This document shows positions 48,302-54,898 of a stretch of DNA of 64,000 bases, piece by piece. How positions within the stretch are numbered: the first letter of the stretch is position 1; each line of letters begins with the position of its first letter. The notes below the pieces were generated by a model, which had not been told where the DNA came from, did no database searches, and was given only the letters and a program-made list of their open reading frames with translations. Source of the DNA: Prevotella sp. GTDB taxonomy: Bacteria; Bacteroidota; Bacteroidia; Bacteroidales; Bacteroidaceae. Where the stretch lies: the NCBI GenBank assembly GCA_017470055.1, contig JAFUFD010000038.1, positions 1-64,000 on the forward strand, written 5' to 3'. The translations under genes were made by a program, and so were the position numbers.

Positions 48302-49225
48302 ATGATGAGAAATTGGCTGTTGGCGCTTAGCAGTTGGCTTTTAGCCTTGGGTTGCGGAGCACAGTCTCCACAGCAGGTAGAGCAGGAGGAGCGAGAAGTT
48401 CCTCAGGCGGATCGTGCCTTTACATACAATAGGGAGTACACCAAGGAGGATAGTGCCTTGGTGGTGAGACTGTTAGAAGAGGCAAAGACAAAGCGAGGCA
48501 AGGAGAATCGGATGATGTACTTCGGCAAGAAATTCTTAGGGTTGCCTTACGTGGGGCATACCCTGGAGAATGGTGACGAGGAACACCTGATCGTCAATCT
48601 GCGTGAACTCGATTGTACCACTTTCGTAGAGACGGTACTTGCCTTGACCCTTTGTGACAGGGACGACAACCGTACGTTTGACGACTATTGCAATAACTTG
48701 ATGAGGATTCGCTATCGTCATGGGAAGATGACGGACTATACCTCCCGCCTGCACTATTTCACTTGGTGGGGAGATGATAATGTCGCATTGGGTCTGGTGA
48801 AGGACATCGGTATCATGGACAATCTTTTTACCGCTATGCAAACCGTTCATGTCAATTATATGTCAGCACACCCTAACCTGTATAAGCAACTGAGGAACCA
48901 TCCAGATTTTGTGCCTGTCATCAAAGCCTACGAGGAGGAGACCAATGGCAAGCAATATCCTTATATTCCCAAGAGTAATTTGGGATGGTCTCCGTCGACA
49001 CCGTTGGCGATGGTTCGGGACGGGGATATCGTCGCCATGCTGACAGATAAGGACGGTTTAGACACTCGCCATATCGGTATTGCCTTCTGGCAGAACGGGA
49101 AACTGCATCTGCTCCATGCCTCCAGCCTCTATAAGAAGGTGCTGATGAGCAAGGAGACTTTCTATGCGTATGAGGCGAGACAACCTAAGCATATTGGTAT
49201 CAGAGTGTGGAGAGCGGTGGAGTGA
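48302..49225 (+). CDS. DUF1460 exported amidase-like protein
   Basis: A 307-residue exported protein. The signal peptide ends in LLALGCGAQS, which could be a lipobox or a signal peptidase I site. The domain DUF1460 belongs with NlpC/P60-like cysteine amidases: the probable nucleophile is Cys in RELDCTTFVET (near residue 103), with His in DTRHIGIAFW (near 260). A role in murein peptide trimming or recycling is the usual guess; direct evidence is absent. The stop shares four bases with the LicD gene start (GTGA). Confidence 0.8.
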   Translation: MMRNWLLALSSWLLALGCGAQSPQQVEQEEREVPQADRAFTYNREYTKEDSALVVRLLEEAKTKRGKENRMMYFGKKFLGLPYVGHTLENGDEEHLIVNLRELDCTTFVETVLALTLCDRDDNRTFDDYCNNLMRIRYRHGKMTDYTSRLHYFTWWGDDNVALGLVKDIGIMDNLFTAMQTVHVNYMSAHPNLYKQLRNHPDFVPVIKAYEEETNGKQYPYIPKSNLGWSPSTPLAMVRDGDIVAMLTDKDGLDTRHIGIAFWQNGKLHLLHASSLYKKVLMSKETFYAYEARQPKHIGIRVWRAVE

Positions 49226-50004
49226 GGAAGATTACGGATATACAGGAACTGCGTAGTATCCAGATGGGAATCTTGGATGACGTGCATCGCTTTTGTGAGG
49301 AGCAGGGACTGCGCTACTCCCTCAGCAGTGGTACACTGATAGGTGCCGTGCGCCACAAGGGCTATATCCCTTGGGACGATGATATCGATATTTATATGCC
49401 CCGAGGCGACTACGAGCGTTTTTTGCAAGATTATTGTGACCAGACGGGACACTATCGTGTGTTGAACCCCCAAAAGGAGTCCCATTATTATTATACTTTT
49501 GCCAAGGTGGTCGACCTGCGCACACGGATGATTGAGAAAGAGACAGAAGGCTATGAGATTGGTGTCTATATTGATGTATTCCCTGTCGACTATGTGACAG
49601 AGGACATGCAGGAGCGTGAGCGTATCTTCCGCCTGAAGAGACTCCTCTACAAGATTCGTCGCTGTAAGATATCCCATAGCAACCCCTTGCGTTCCCGTCT
49701 TGCCTATTGGTGCTATCGCAGTCTGCCTGTTACGGTAGGGATGCTGAACCGTTGGATTGAGAAAATAATTGTGCGGAAAGAGCCTACCCGGACACTCTGC
49801 CACATGACAGAGGCAGGACCTGCTATCAAGGGCTGTTTCCCCGCTAAGGATATGGAGACGTATATCGACTTGCCTTTTGAGGATCGTATCTACAAGGCGA
49901 TGGTAGGCTATGACGACCATCTGACGAGGACGTATGGCGACTATATGCAACTGCCTCCCGAAGACCAGCGGACTACCCACCAGTTTGAGGCGTACTGGAT
50001 TTAG
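49222..50004 (+). CDS. LicD-family phosphoalcohol transferase
   Basis: A 260-residue LicD/fukutin-type enzyme. The nucleotidyltransferase-fold motif is intact: GTLIGAVRHKGYIPWDDDID (near residues 34-53), where the DDDID aspartates bind metal. LicD proteins move phosphocholine or similar groups from a CDP-activated donor to a glycan. The GTG at 49222 overlaps the DUF1460 stop; a GTG at 49207 is an alternative. It converges (four-base overlap) on a unit encoding a cytidylyltransferase/PLP-enzyme fusion and an opine-type dehydrogenase, which could make its donor. The acceptor glycan is unknown and no glycosyltransferases are near. Confidence 0.85.
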   Translation: MRKITDIQELRSIQMGILDDVHRFCEEQGLRYSLSSGTLIGAVRHKGYIPWDDDIDIYMPRGDYERFLQDYCDQTGHYRVLNPQKESHYYYTFAKVVDLRTRMIEKETEGYEIGVYIDVFPVDYVTEDMQERERIFRLKRLLYKIRRCKISHSNPLRSRLAYWCYRSLPVTVGMLNRWIEKIIVRKEPTRTLCHMTEAGPAIKGCFPAKDMETYIDLPFEDRIYKAMVGYDDHLTRTYGDYMQLPPEDQRTTHQFEAYWI

Positions 50005-51008
50005 GTATTAATAGTTAACATGGTTTTACCCCATTCATACACCTTATTAATATAAGGGCAGTGGATGTGATGCTCGTGCATCAAACGATGAATGATGGCA
50101 AGACCGTAAGGAAAATCCTCTGTGAAATAACGGCTCTGGAAGTCAGGAACGAAAGCGTTCCCTATTTTCTTCATGGGCGAGAGGATGCCTTTGAAAGCCT
50201 CAATGGAGTGCAGTTTCTGGGTTAGTGTGGCGGCATTAGTGCTCTCGTAATAGTCGAGGACAGTGGGAATAGCGCCAGGAGTAACGGGTAGTATATCGAG
50301 TAAAAGGAAAAACTCCTTGTCCATGTCGATGAGCAGTTGGGAAGCCTCGTCCGTCCAATCGCTATAGAACTGGCTCTGTATGGGATATGTAACGCCCTCG
50401 TGCCAGTCATGCCACATGTCATAGAGGCGGGAGGTATGCAATAAAGGGTTACTATTCGTCAGACTGACCTCATAGTGACTGGCAAGCAGATGAACAGGGG
50501 TGTCGAACATCTTGCCGAGTGTCTCAGCAAGTGAAAGACCTTCTCCCCTCTCTACGGCAATACTTAGGGAGGACTTATAGCCTAACAGGTGAGCGGATTT
50601 GCCATAGTCCTCCACACGGGCGATAAAGGGGACACGTTGGAAACCATACAAAGGGGTGGTCTCAGGGAGTATTCCCATTGCCTCGAAGAAGAACCCCGTA
50701 CTGCTGACCACACTACCCACGGCAGTATGGGGGGGCAGATATGGAAGAATCGCTTGCAGGGTGTCTGCGATACCATAGCCAGGAAGGCAGAGGAGGATAA
50801 GGTCTGCTTGTGGAATCAGTTCGGCAGGATTTGCCGAAAGGCGGGAGATAGTGCCCTCAAGGGTCTTGCCCTCTGGAGTCGTGATATGCAAGGTCTTGTC
50901 CCATTGCTCCGGATGACGGGTCAGCAGACTGACCTCATAGCCCTTATTGGCAAGATAGCCGGTGATGACATGTCCGAGGTTGCCCCCTCCGCAGATACAG
51001 ATATTCAT
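50001..51008 (-). CDS. octopine/nopaline-type NAD(P) dehydrogenase
   Basis: A 335-residue cytosolic dehydrogenase. The N-terminal Rossmann motif is ICGGGNLGHVITGYLANKGY, and the C-terminal half has the opine dehydrogenase pattern (SLTNSNPLLHTSRLYDMW, where the His is the likely catalytic residue). Enzymes of this family join an amino group to a 2-keto acid by reductive condensation. Its ATG overlaps the stop of the cytidylyltransferase/PLP fusion by four bases, so both serve one pathway. I propose that it alkylates the amine of phosphoethanolamine or CDP-ethanolamine, for example with pyruvate; this is inference. Confidence 0.82.
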   Translation of the reverse strand: MNICICGGGNLGHVITGYLANKGYEVSLLTRHPEQWDKTLHITTPEGKTLEGTISRLSANPAELIPQADLILLCLPGYGIADTLQAILPYLPPHTAVGSVVSSTGFFFEAMGILPETTPLYGFQRVPFIARVEDYGKSAHLLGYKSSLSIAVERGEGLSLAETLGKMFDTPVHLLASHYEVSLTNSNPLLHTSRLYDMWHDWHEGVTYPIQSQFYSDWTDEASQLLIDMDKEFFLLLDILPVTPGAIPTVLDYYESTNAATLTQKLHSIEAFKGILSPMKKIGNAFVPDFQSRYFTEDFPYGLAIIHRLMHEHHIHCPYINKVYEWGKTMLTINT

Positions 51009-52816
51009 AATGACCTTAACGCTTCAATCAGATGGTCGTTGTCCTCAGTGTCTCGCACTGACAGGCGGATATAGTTGCCGCCTCTCAGTCCGTTCTTCGA
51101 GTCGCAGTCTTTTGCCATGATATTGAAACGCTCCAATAAAAGCAAGGTCAGTTCTGCGGAGGTGTATTTGTCGATGACCTGACAGCAGAAATAGTTTGCC
51201 TGGGTGGGCAGTACCTTCAGATAGGGGATGGTACGTAGCAACTTGCCAAAGCGGTCACGCTCGGCGATGAAACGGTGACACGCTTGTACGTAGTCTTTCT
51301 CGTATTTGCCGAAGATCTGCATATAGAACTCACCGAAAGAGTTGATATTCCAGATACTCACGTCTTCCTTGATACGACAGATGGTGTCGGTGTCGGCAGA
51401 GGCAAGGATGCCTAAGCGTAGTCCGGGAACGCCATACGACTTGGAGATGCTCTTCATCACGACCAGTCCCTTATATGACTCTAAGATATCGTTGTGTAAC
51501 AGACTATTGTGCTCAAAGTCCTCGCTGAAGTCCACAAACGACTCATCGACGATGAGGCGGATACCTTGTTGGCGGCTCCAGGTGATGAGGCTTCGCAGTC
51601 CCTCCATGGGGATAAAGTTGCCAGAGGGGTTGTCTGGGTTGATAAGCAGCAAACTGTCAATTTGTCTCTCGCCAAAGAAGTGGATGAGGTCGTCTGCCGT
51701 GTAACTCAGATCGTCGTTGTCTGGTTGGAATGCGACAATCTGGTCTGGGCGCAGGCGATGGGGATATTCCTCAAAAGTAGGATAGATGACACCGATTCTC
51801 CCCTGTGTCCCTTCCATCAGGCTCTTGATCAGTTCTGCGGCTCCATTGCCTGCCACCACATAGTCTTGCTTGATACCAAAATACTTGCCGGCAAGGAGGG
51901 AGTTGACAAACATCCCGGAGGGATACTCTGTCAATAGGGTGTCGAAGTTGGCACGCAACTCATCCTTCATCCGCTGGGGAGGGAAGTAGGGATTTACCAG
52001 ATAGCAATAGTCAAGCATCTTGGGGAATCGCCAGTGTCCGCCATAGCGGTAGTTGAAGCGGTGCAGCATCTCCTCGCCCTCGGCGAAGATCGTCTCTGCG
52101 ATATCCAAGTCTTGGATATCGTCTATCTCATACCATTTCTCATTACCGATAGGCAGTGCTTTCAGGTCGGCATGGTCGATCAGAGTGATGACACGCAGCA
52201 CCTGCTCGTAATACTCGTTGTTGCCCAAGGCGGCGCAATATGCCTCTAAGAAGGGCACGTATTTATGCTGTGCAAAATCACGTGAGAACTTGTAGATATT
52301 GACAGTCTTGTAATATTGGTCGACATCCGCATATTTGAAAGCCTTCTTCGGAACAAAGTTGACGATATGATTGTCTGCGTCGATGCGCACCATCGTGCCG
52401 TCCATCCATGACTCGTATTTGGCGACGAGGGCAAGGTTGGGGTAGGGATTCTCTACCAGCATCTGAAACAAGCGGTCGCTGAAGATAAGGTCACTCTCTA
52501 TCAATAGCGTGTCGTCCTCCTGGAATTGCTGTTTCACCAGCGACAACGAGTAGATATTATTCGTCTTGTCGTAGATGGGGTTCTCGGCAAACTCTATCCT
52601 CAAACGGTCATGATAGCGGTCACCGATATAGTCACGGAGTTCCTGGCCCTTATAGCCGACCACGATGATGACACGGCTGAGGGAGAGTTGCGACAACTGC
52701 CCTAACAGCCGGTCTATCAGTCGTACACCATTCACTGGGACCATGCATTTCGTCTGGTCCTTGGTCAGTTCACCGAGTCTGCGACCCATACCTGCCGCCA
52801 AGATAATTGCCTGCAT
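51005..52816 (-). CDS. bifunctional nucleotidyltransferase / CobD-like PLP enzyme
   Basis: A 603-residue fusion. Residues 1-235 are a sugar-nucleotide-type transferase of the LicC group (LAAGMGRRLGELTKDQTKCM, ESDLIFSD). Residues about 245-603 are a fold-type I PLP enzyme of the HisC/CobD group (NPDNPSGNF, DESFVDF, and SISKSYGVPGLRLG with the PLP lysine at Lys459). A decarboxylase of CobD type acting on phosphoserine would give phosphoethanolamine, which the first domain could turn into CDP-ethanolamine. A transaminase making aminoethylphosphonate is the alternative, but no PEP mutase is present. Fifteen bases separate it from metG upstream. Confidence 0.83.
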   Translation of the reverse strand: MQAIILAAGMGRRLGELTKDQTKCMVPVNGVRLIDRLLGQLSQLSLSRVIIVVGYKGQELRDYIGDRYHDRLRIEFAENPIYDKTNNIYSLSLVKQQFQEDDTLLIESDLIFSDRLFQMLVENPYPNLALVAKYESWMDGTMVRIDADNHIVNFVPKKAFKYADVDQYYKTVNIYKFSRDFAQHKYVPFLEAYCAALGNNEYYEQVLRVITLIDHADLKALPIGNEKWYEIDDIQDLDIAETIFAEGEEMLHRFNYRYGGHWRFPKMLDYCYLVNPYFPPQRMKDELRANFDTLLTEYPSGMFVNSLLAGKYFGIKQDYVVAGNGAAELIKSLMEGTQGRIGVIYPTFEEYPHRLRPDQIVAFQPDNDDLSYTADDLIHFFGERQIDSLLLINPDNPSGNFIPMEGLRSLITWSRQQGIRLIVDESFVDFSEDFEHNSLLHNDILESYKGLVVMKSISKSYGVPGLRLGILASADTDTICRIKEDVSIWNINSFGEFYMQIFGKYEKDYVQACHRFIAERDRFGKLLRTIPYLKVLPTQANYFCCQVIDKYTSAELTLLLLERFNIMAKDCDSKNGLRGGNYIRLSVRDTEDNDHLIEALRSL

Positions 52817-52831
52817 AACTTCAATTTTTTA

Positions 52832-54898
52832 TTATCCCACCACGCTACCTGGCTTTACGTCTTTTGTCGTCGTTACCACACTAAGGCTCTCGTCGAAGTC
52901 GACAGCAGAGAGAATCATGCCCTGACTCTCAATGCCCATCATCTGACGGGGAGCGAAGTTGGCGACAAAGAGGATGCGCTTGCCGATAAGGTCGGCGGGG
53001 GTCTCATAGAAGGCGGCGATACCACTGAGGATGGTACGGTCGGTACCGGTGCCGTCGTCGATGGTGAACTGCAGGAGTTTCTTCGACTTCTTCACTTTCT
53101 GGCAGTCTTTGATAAGTCCCACACGGATATCGAGTTTCTCGAAGTCCTCGAAACTGACAGTGTCCTTGATGGGAGCAGCCTTGTATTGTGCTGCCTCATT
53201 CTGTTTCTTCGTCGCCTCCAGTTTATCGAGTTGCTTCTGAATAACCTCATCCTCAATCTTCTCGAAGAGCAGACTGGGCTCACCCAACTGGTGACCAGCC
53301 TTCAACAGGTCGGTGCTACCCAGTTGCTCCCAGTCGAACGACTGGATATTCAGCATCTCACGCAGTTTCTGACTTGAGAAAGGCAGGAACGGCTCGAAGG
53401 CAATGGCAAGGTTTGCCACCAGTTGCAGGGAGATATTCAGAATCGTCTCCACACGTTTCATGTCCGTCTTTGCCACCTTCCATGGCTCACAGTCAGTGAT
53501 GTATTTGTTGCCGATACGGGCGAGGTTCATCGCCTCCTTCTGTGCCTCACGGAACTTAAACTGGTCGAGGAGTGCCTCCACACGACTCTTCACGTCCTTA
53601 AACTCTCCGAGTGTCTGGCGGTCAATCTCCTGTAGTTCCCCACAGGTAGGAACGACACCGTTCCAGTATTTCTTGGTCAGTTGCAGGGCACGGTTGACGA
53701 AGTTGCCATAGATAGCAACCAGTTCGTTGTTATTACGGTCTTGGAAGTCCTTCCAAGTGAAGTTGTTGTCTTTCGTCTCAGGGGCATTCGCCGTCAGCAC
53801 ATAACGCAGCACGTCCTGTTTGCCAGGCATGTCCACGAGGTATTCGTGCAACCACACCGCCCAGTTGCGAGAGGTGGAGATCTTGTCGTTCTCCAGGTTC
53901 AGGAACTCATTGGCGGGCACGTTGTCCGGCATGATATACTTGCCGTGCGCCTTCATCATCACGGGAAAGATGATACAGTGGAACACGATATTGTCCTTTC
54001 CGATGAAATGTACCAGACGGGTATCCTCATCCTGCCACCATTTCTCCCAGGAGCCCCAACGCTCCGGCTCACGGTCGCAGAGTTCCTTGGTGTTGCTGAC
54101 ATAGCCAATGGGTGCGTCGAACCATACGTAGAGCACCTTACCGTCGGCTCCCTCCACAGGAACGGGGATTCCCCAGTCCAAGTCACGGGTCATGGCACGG
54201 GGCTGCAAGTCCATATCGAGCCATGACTTACACTGTCCGTAGACGTTCGGACGCCATTCCTTATGGCTCTCAAGGATCCATTGCCTCAACCAGTCCTGAT
54301 ACTCGTTCAGGGGCAGATACCAGTTCTTGGTCTTCTTCAGTACAGGGGTAGAACCGCTGATGGTCGACTTGGGGTTGATGAGTTCCGTAGGACTCAGGTC
54401 ACGTCCGCATTTCTCGCACTGGTCACCATAAGCACCCTCGTTATGGCAATGGGGGCACTCACCCGTCACATAACGGTCGGCGAGGAACTGCTTCGCCTCC
54501 TCGTCGTAGAGTTGCTCGGTGGTTTCCTCCACCAGTTTTCCATCATCATAGAGTTTGCGAAACCACTCGGCGGCAAACTGATGGTGTGTCGCACTGGTGG
54601 TGCGACTATAGATGTCGAAAGAGATACCGAACTCCTTGAAGGAGTCCTTGATCATCTTGTGATAGCGGTCTACCACATCCTGTGGGGTGATACCTTCCTT
54701 ACGGGCACGGACGGTGATGGGCACACCATGCTCATCGCTACCGCCAATAAAAAGTACCTCTTCTTTCTTCAGTCTCAGATAACGTACATAGATGTCTGCA
54801 GGTACATACACACCAGCCAAGTGACCGATATGCACACCGCCATTAGCGTAGGGCAGTGCGGATGTCACGGTCGTTCGCTTAAACTTCTTTTCAGCCAT
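52832..54898 (-). CDS. metG: methionyl-tRNA synthetase
   Basis: A 688-residue enzyme. The class I HIGH motif is in [12 protein letters not shown] (near residue 22), a zinc knuckle [17 protein letters not shown] follows, and the KMSKS loop reads KISTS ([11 protein letters not shown]). An EMAP-II-like tRNA-binding domain forms the C-terminal 110 residues ([17 protein letters not shown]). It heads a unit with the CobD-like fusion and the opine-type dehydrogenase. Confidence 0.96.

Follow-up and report, generated by a model that had tools for sequence, protein, structure and literature searches.

Why should a LicD-family phosphotransferase, an opine dehydrogenase-family reductase (ODH) and a protein that fuses a nucleotidyltransferase to a pyridoxal phosphate (PLP) enzyme lie side by side in the genome of a gut Prevotella? 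We addressed this question for a window of 64,000 nucleotides, the whole stretch of DNA that was analysed (assembly GCA_017470055.1, contig JAFUFD010000038.1, positions 1 to 64,000), in which a first-pass annotation had proposed that the three proteins decorate a glycan with opine-modified phosphoethanolamine. From sequence comparison, we consider it probable that the set makes cytidine diphosphate (CDP)-N-(carboxyalkyl)ethanolamine and that LicD transfers the phospho-tag of this donor to a glycan. The linkage of LicD, ODH and the fusion is real and far beyond chance. The logic of the pathway is strongly supported; its chemistry is well motivated, and its substrates, products and acceptor are predicted. 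The gene set is a variant of the Lic and Pnt nucleotidyl-activation pathways. New relative to the first-pass annotation are its metG and O-glycosylation-locus context and an interchangeable second reductase family.

Genes of the locus

The features concerned are the following (positions in the window).

49222..50004, plus strand: LicD-family phosphotransferase, 260 aa, GTG start, convergent to ODH; Pfam LicD, 7.2e-45
50001..51008, minus strand: ODH, opine/octopine dehydrogenase-family reductase, 335 aa; Octopine_DH, 1.9e-28, with N-terminal Rossmann-type matches
51005..52816, minus strand: NTP-PLP bifunctional fusion (nucleotidyltransferase plus PLP enzyme), 603 aa
52082..52816, minus strand: LicC/PntC-like nucleotidyltransferase (NTP) domain of the fusion, aa 1-245
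51005..52081, minus strand: CobD-like PLP domain of the fusion, aa 246-603 plus the stop codon; PLP lysine K459
51005..51008, minus strand: ATGA stop/start overlap of fusion and ODH, head to tail (translational coupling), seen in the sequence
52832..54898, minus strand: metG, directly upstream of the fusion on the same strand; context, outside the pathway

All three open reading frames (ORFs) were intact and had significant family matches in Pfam and NCBIfam, which placed the genes and their families as the first-pass annotation had. Its claim of four-base head-to-tail overlaps was correct for the fusion and ODH, but LicD and ODH are convergent and their four-base overlap (50001-50004) is tail to tail. 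Upstream, an AmiA-like gene and LicD overlap by GTGA (49222-49225). The LicD start agreed with the starts of its orthologues, and its Pfam LicD score (154.3 bits) was above the cut-off of 22.6; the protein contains a DDD motif, a feature typical of LicD proteins. In the fusion, the NTP transferase is N-terminal and an aminotransferase class I/II domain is C-terminal.

Linkage and distribution of the gene set

Two samples of loci were compared. The ODH loci were the best 80 of 326 relatives from a scan of named genomes; they were chosen by ODH, and several end at contig edges. The second sample comprised 102 fusion loci, with counts made within the fetched stretches. Of the 96 family genomes that matched the fusion, 80 fetched stretches and 4 others were included, and 12 were left out (7 partial, 5 full-length). 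Locus L063 was excluded from the 102 because its fusion sits on another contig (L064), and L064 was scored as having neither reductase although its genome carries ODH.

The fusion was present in 78 of the 80 ODH loci (77 as one ORF; L082 and L140 lack it), LicD in 66, and all three genes in 65; some of the 14 loci with no visible LicD are truncated by contig ends. LicD lay within the fetched stretch of 74 fusion loci. In 100 genomes, the window's own included, ODH (E <= 1e-50) and the fusion (E <= 1e-60) occurred together in 17, ODH alone in none, the fusion alone in 4, and neither in 79 (Fisher 9e-16, phylogeny not controlled); G066, one of these 79, does encode proteins weakly homologous to ODH (26% and 32% identity). 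The three families therefore co-occur elsewhere, as the first-pass annotation had expected. ODH and LicD were also found as a single ORF, in 15/80 ODH loci and 5/102 fusion loci, and in L151 they were joined with a third part in one ORF. The existence of such single ORFs suggests that ODH and LicD act jointly.

The fusion occurred in 96/399 family genomes (own counted) and in 2/395 genomes of a phylum-wide draw, own genome included; the set is thus mostly restricted to this family and a small number of other families in the order. Most records holding the nearest ODH relatives were titled Prevotella or Prevotellaceae, and rumen metagenome-assembled genomes were frequent among the records; Hoylesella timonensis and H. 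buccalis were represented as well. None of the 13 pattern-matching viral stretches checked encodes an ODH relative.

The PLP domain

The fusion matched the NCBIfam CobD model (1.1e-48) with 166 bits, below the cut-off of 290.55, and is thus not CobD itself. The best solved match of the PLP domain was PDB 6oux (1.9e-42), and Salmonella CobD matched at 1.8e-27. The molecule name of 6oux, ‘threonine phosphate decarboxylase-like enzyme’, is the annotation borne by SMUL_1544; we take 6oux to be the SMUL_1544 product, which presumably decarboxylates phosphoserine for norcobamide. In our tree, which left out Campylobacter Cj1436 and Cj1437 (both presumably within the PLP superfamily of the fusion domain), 12 fusion PLP domains and 6oux formed one clade with support 99/97. 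Outside this clade, the HisC rows grouped with a HisC-like row from the window's own genome, and the CobD-type rows grouped with 3ftb. In alignments of 101 fusions, which omit L156 (below the score limit), the PLP lysine K459 was found in 100/101, and D424 and R467 in 101/101. Elsewhere, the own genome encodes a HisC (344 bits, cut-off 276.55) and a CobD-like protein (271 bits, just under the cut-off of 290.55), indicating that neither job needs the fusion. The grouping with a phosphoserine-decarboxylase-type chain, and not with HisC, favours a predicted decarboxylase.

The same logic could be served by another amine. The PLP domain would then produce either serinol phosphate from dihydroxyacetone phosphate (the Cj1437 reaction) or, starting from phosphothreonine, 1-amino-2-propanol phosphate, and this product would be CDP-activated, N-alkylated and transferred. 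Campylobacter is described as having two enzymes of this kind for its capsule, Cj1436, which turns serine phosphate into ethanolamine phosphate, and Cj1437, whose product is serinol phosphate, and CobD ranked first in NCBIfam for our domain, though under its cut-off. However, the PLP domain clustered with the 6oux chain and not with the CobD or HisC rows of a tree lacking Cj1436 and Cj1437, and we consider a different amine unlikely. Phosphoserine decarboxylation is the reading that we carried forward.

The nucleotidyltransferase domain

The solved chains closest to the NTP domain were PDB 1jyk (LicC, 2.5e-12) and 6pd1 (PntC-AEPT, 8.7e-9). In the Treponema protein, Glu104 (Tde-PntC) is described as positioned to contact the primary amine, and LicC has Asp at this place (PMC6697681). 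Residue E107 of the fusion aligned with Tde-PntC E104, a position read from the printed alignment, and both E107 and D109 were invariant (101/101 fusion sequences). No phosphoenolpyruvate (PEP) mutase exceeded the cut-off in the own genome (best 28.7 bits, cut-off 31.5; draft, 95% complete), which makes phosphoethanolamine a likelier substrate than aminoethylphosphonate. A LicC/PntC-like cytidylyltransferase acting on an amine fits better than the rivals compared.

Treponema PntC-AEPT resembles our fusion in several ways: a nucleotidyltransferase is joined to a PLP enzyme in the identical domain order, the amine-contacting Glu is the same, and an amino-alkyl head group is nucleotidyl-activated for cell-surface tailoring (PMC6697681). 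Our fusion could accordingly be a PntC-AEPT of a phosphonate pathway, its PLP domain being a 2-aminoethylphosphonate transaminase. Unlike that system, which has a class V transaminase (6pd1 is named class V) and a phosphonate, the present one has a CobD-like domain of class I/II and an added reductase. As its own draft genome also yielded no PEP mutase over the cut-off, we rejected the phosphonate route as very unlikely. The tree, the separate HisC and CobD-like genes, the PEP mutase result and the Glu signature make the first-pass assignments of both domains, as a phosphoserine decarboxylase and a cytidylyltransferase, a better fit than the rivals compared.

The ODH reductase

ODH aligned along its length with octopine dehydrogenase (OcDH; PDB 3c7a, 1.5e-29), with which it shares the fold family and the catalytic His-Asp and Arg. 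OcDH His212, Arg324 and Asp329 (numbers read from the alignment) correspond to ODH H191, R293 and D298, each found in 65/65 rows of an alignment from which five ODH-LicD ORFs were omitted and to which L063 was added. In OcDH, Glu142 and Trp278 are described as holding, through their side chains, the guanidinium of a bound arginine analogue (PMC2924402). The two enzymes differ at these positions: Glu142 is replaced by Gln in 64/65 ODH sequences, Trp278 falls in a gap, and the positions of Thr143 and Ile215 are Arg (R125 and R194) in 65/65. ODH further differs from OcDH in being tied to LicD. Because the guanidinium-binding residues are replaced and R125 and R194 are invariant, we infer that ODH acts on an anionic amine carrying a phosphate or pyrophosphate.

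A second reductase family in the ODH slot

The exchange of the reductase is the most surprising part of our findings. Of the 102 fusion loci, 69 contained ODH, 15 contained a member of the ornithine-cyclodeaminase/mu-crystallin family (OCD), none contained both, and 18 contained neither (Fisher p 3e-9, phylogeny not controlled). OCD was called with a hidden Markov model built from two sequences. A family search was run for 2 of the 15 proteins (Pfam OCD_Mu_crystall, 5.6e-25 and 2.4e-33), and the other 13 scored 199 to 510 bits with the two-sequence model. Among NCBIfam models, those nearest to these two checked proteins include imine reductases and SbnB, all below cut-off. Similarity between ODH and OCD was weak (best E 1.6e-4), consistent with a common Rossmann fold. 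Both partners occupy the same place: the partner ORF started between -100 and +200 bases from the fusion stop in 63/69 ODH loci and 15/15 OCD loci, and at exactly -4 in 37/68 same-strand ODH loci and 7/15 OCD loci. Since the same fusion and LicD accompany either reductase, both probably act on one amine. A search of the own genome for OCD, made without a positive control, gave no match at E <= 0.001.

When reductase type was mapped onto a tree of 101 fusions, the OCD rows, 15 in number, required 15 changes, 13 of them forced by starred branches, and the OCD labels scattered like shuffled ones (shuffled mean 14.2 changes). This was a quick tree with SH-aLRT (approximate likelihood ratio test) support only, and recombination inside the fusion gene may also play a part. 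Eight pairings were compared directly. L177 and L181 differed by a one-gene exchange, with flanks of 88% and 95% DNA identity, LicD of 98% amino acid identity, and homology resuming right behind the reductase. The pairs L198/L199 and L235/L236 showed the same clean exchange, with homology resuming directly after the reductase, and L177/L175, which has L177 in common with the first pair, was a one-gene exchange too. There was no colinear resumption downstream in L177/L174, L176/L195, L228/L211 and L180/L194. That two reductase families have replaced each other repeatedly between colinear flanks amounts to an unusual natural experiment, one tying enzyme identity to glycan diversification.

Tentatively, the slot might act as a swappable module that varies the outermost part of a surface glycan. 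With the upstream enzyme and LicD unchanged, CDP-ethanolamine would receive its N-carboxyalkyl group in one or the other of two opposite configurations, or from different keto acids, altering how the cell is read by hosts, phages and glycan-binding proteins. By analogy with the products of octopine dehydrogenase and SbnB, our guess would be an R centre from ODH and an S centre from OCD.

Either reductase might conceivably make a free opine-like metabolite apart from the CDP-amine route, the linkage being one of operonic convenience. Opine dehydrogenases are indeed described as joining amino acids with keto acids. However, the slot is conserved while the reductase is swapped, the arginine-binding residues are lost, and ODH forms single ORFs with LicD (counts above); we therefore regard a free product as highly improbable, and favour a reductase that works on the CDP-linked amine.

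At one locus, a CDP-glycerol glycerophosphotransferase-family gene stands right after the fusion, in the usual place of ODH or OCD (L183:8867-10045).

Proposed pathway and related systems

In the pathway that we propose, the PLP domain would decarboxylate O-phospho-L-serine to phosphoethanolamine, and the NTP domain to which it is fused would turn this product into CDP-ethanolamine. ODH would then reductively condense the primary amine, probably in its CDP-linked form, with a 2-oxo acid to give an N-(1-carboxyalkyl) group; pyruvate, a guess, would give N-(1-carboxyethyl). In the last step, LicD would take phospho-(N-carboxyalkyl)ethanolamine off its CDP carrier and attach it to a sugar, most likely an outer one of the general protein O-glycan. 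The order of decarboxylation, cytidylylation, N-alkylation and transfer is suggested by the fusion of PLP to NTP domain and the occasional fusion of ODH to LicD, and cytidylylation likely precedes N-alkylation.

Like the Lic phosphocholine pathway, the set pairs a LicC-like cytidylyltransferase with a LicD transferase. It differs in that no choline-kinase-like gene was found among the adjacent genes examined, Glu replaces the LicC Asp, the substrate probably derives from phosphoserine, and the amine is predicted to be N-alkylated. SMUL_1544 is presumably also an ethanolamine phosphate-making enzyme, but one that serves norcobamide. Cj1436 shares the product predicted here, but is described as serving amidation of capsule glucuronic acid; in both cases our PLP domain differs in being fused to a nucleotidyltransferase.

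The first-pass annotation had named N-(1-carboxyethyl)phosphoethanolamine as a known glycan substituent, and this holds for the R form: a Proteus/Klebsiella review (PMC9630907) counts N-[(R)-1-carboxyethyl]ethanolamine phosphate as a component of O-polysaccharides (O-antigens). With pyruvate as the keto acid and an R configuration at the new centre, the pathway would be predicted to end in this compound. No title among the literature matches listed concerned biosynthesis of this substituent. Among the papers listed, none joined LicD with opine dehydrogenase, although absence from the open literature is not proof, and papers pairing LicD with carboxyethyl or ornithine cyclodeaminase were unrelated by title. 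The locus thus provides candidate genes for the making of carboxyalkyl-phosphoethanolamine tags, and predicts an unreported substituent on the glycans of many Prevotella and relatives.

The probable acceptor glycan

The layout of Bacteroides O-glycosylation (LFG) loci was taken from a 2025 review (PMC12871550): they start with metG and wzx and finish with two glycosyltransferases. A FucT family is also described within such loci (PMC8698959). In two relatives, L224 and L221, metG and wzx come first, then the fusion, ODH and LicD, and after these a comparable series of further ORFs; the wzx of these loci scored 834 and 843 against the NCBIfam O-glycosylation-flippase cut-off of 720. The further ORFs of L224 comprised a FUT8-like gene and three glycosyltransferases, so that the surroundings of the set there share with the LFG locus not only metG and wzx but also a FucT-like gene and glycosyltransferases. 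The same review counts phosphate among rare modifications, and its text contains neither ‘LicD’ nor ‘opine’. Phospho-HexNAc (N-acetylhexosamine) provides precedents for phospho-tags on this O-glycan: that of P. gingivalis is described as HexNAc bearing glycerol phosphate, and that of P. intermedia as HexNAc-phosphate-C6H12O5. In the window itself, metG is the only one of these genes that adjoins the set, and the best wzx of the genome sits on contig C105, followed by a relative (55% identity) of an unnamed protein beside LicD in L224. In L074, the closest relative, wzx and the set share one stretch, with wzx about 7 kb past ODH. FucT gave only weak matches in the own genome (4.6e-4 and 7.9e-4). 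As some relatives carry the set within metG-wzx protein O-glycosylation loci, the general protein O-glycan, most likely in its outer part, is the likely acceptor.

Several observations weigh against the pathway or this acceptor. The clade uniting the fusion PLP domains and 6oux joins long branches (a program warning), 1/101 fusions lacks the PLP lysine, and the PLP domain could instead be a transaminase. No LicD was seen in the fetched stretch of 28/102 fusion loci. The 18/102 without either reductase, 10 of which have LicD, suggest that the reductase is optional, and those 10 may make a plain tag. We found no assay or glycan structure for any family member. As for the acceptor, the other wzx scored fell below 720 (L049, 640; L058, 618), the own O-glycosylation-type wzx on C105 reached 560 bits, also below cut-off, and fusion stretches contained a wzx match in only 21/102 and metG in only 18/102, so that the acceptor may vary.

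These low counts would also suit a lipid, lipopolysaccharide or capsule target for the same donor, as would the sole NCBIfam match of LicD, a lipid cholinephosphotransferase model (78 bits, below the cut-off of 225). On the other side, the flippase scores mark L224 and L221 as O-glycosylation loci, the 80 ODH loci, whose stretches are longer, included a wzx homologue in 51 cases and metG in 44 (most wzx not scored against the family model), and the third part of the L151 ORF, one ORF with ODH-LicD, looked glycosyltransferase-like by eye, its relatives being without a Pfam match. Such a target is in our judgement improbable, and the protein O-glycan remains our preferred acceptor.

A protein of about 340 aa, ‘u352’ (L049:10928-11986 and homologues), recurs beside LicD and had no Pfam match in the three copies checked; it is fused to ODH-LicD in L151, and by eye is a GT-A-like glycosyltransferase.

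Other nucleotidyltransferase clusters

Two further clusters were seen in the own genome. On contig C108 (L071:8487-12349), a nucleotidyltransferase and a HisC-like PLP enzyme overlap by 4 bp; their neighbours are an HpnL-like membrane protein and a gene resembling those of CDP-alcohol phosphatidyltransferases. This group may be a second CDP-amino-alcohol cassette that supplies a lipid head group. On contig C112 (L072:3367-7942), a LicC-like gene and a second LicD occur with a protein of which one half is kinase-like, an arrangement that resembles a phosphocholine-type cluster. In two other loci (L166:3507-5246 and L197:5137-6999), IspD-LicD single ORFs stand right before the NTP-PLP fusion, which suggests a second CDP-alcohol route beside it.

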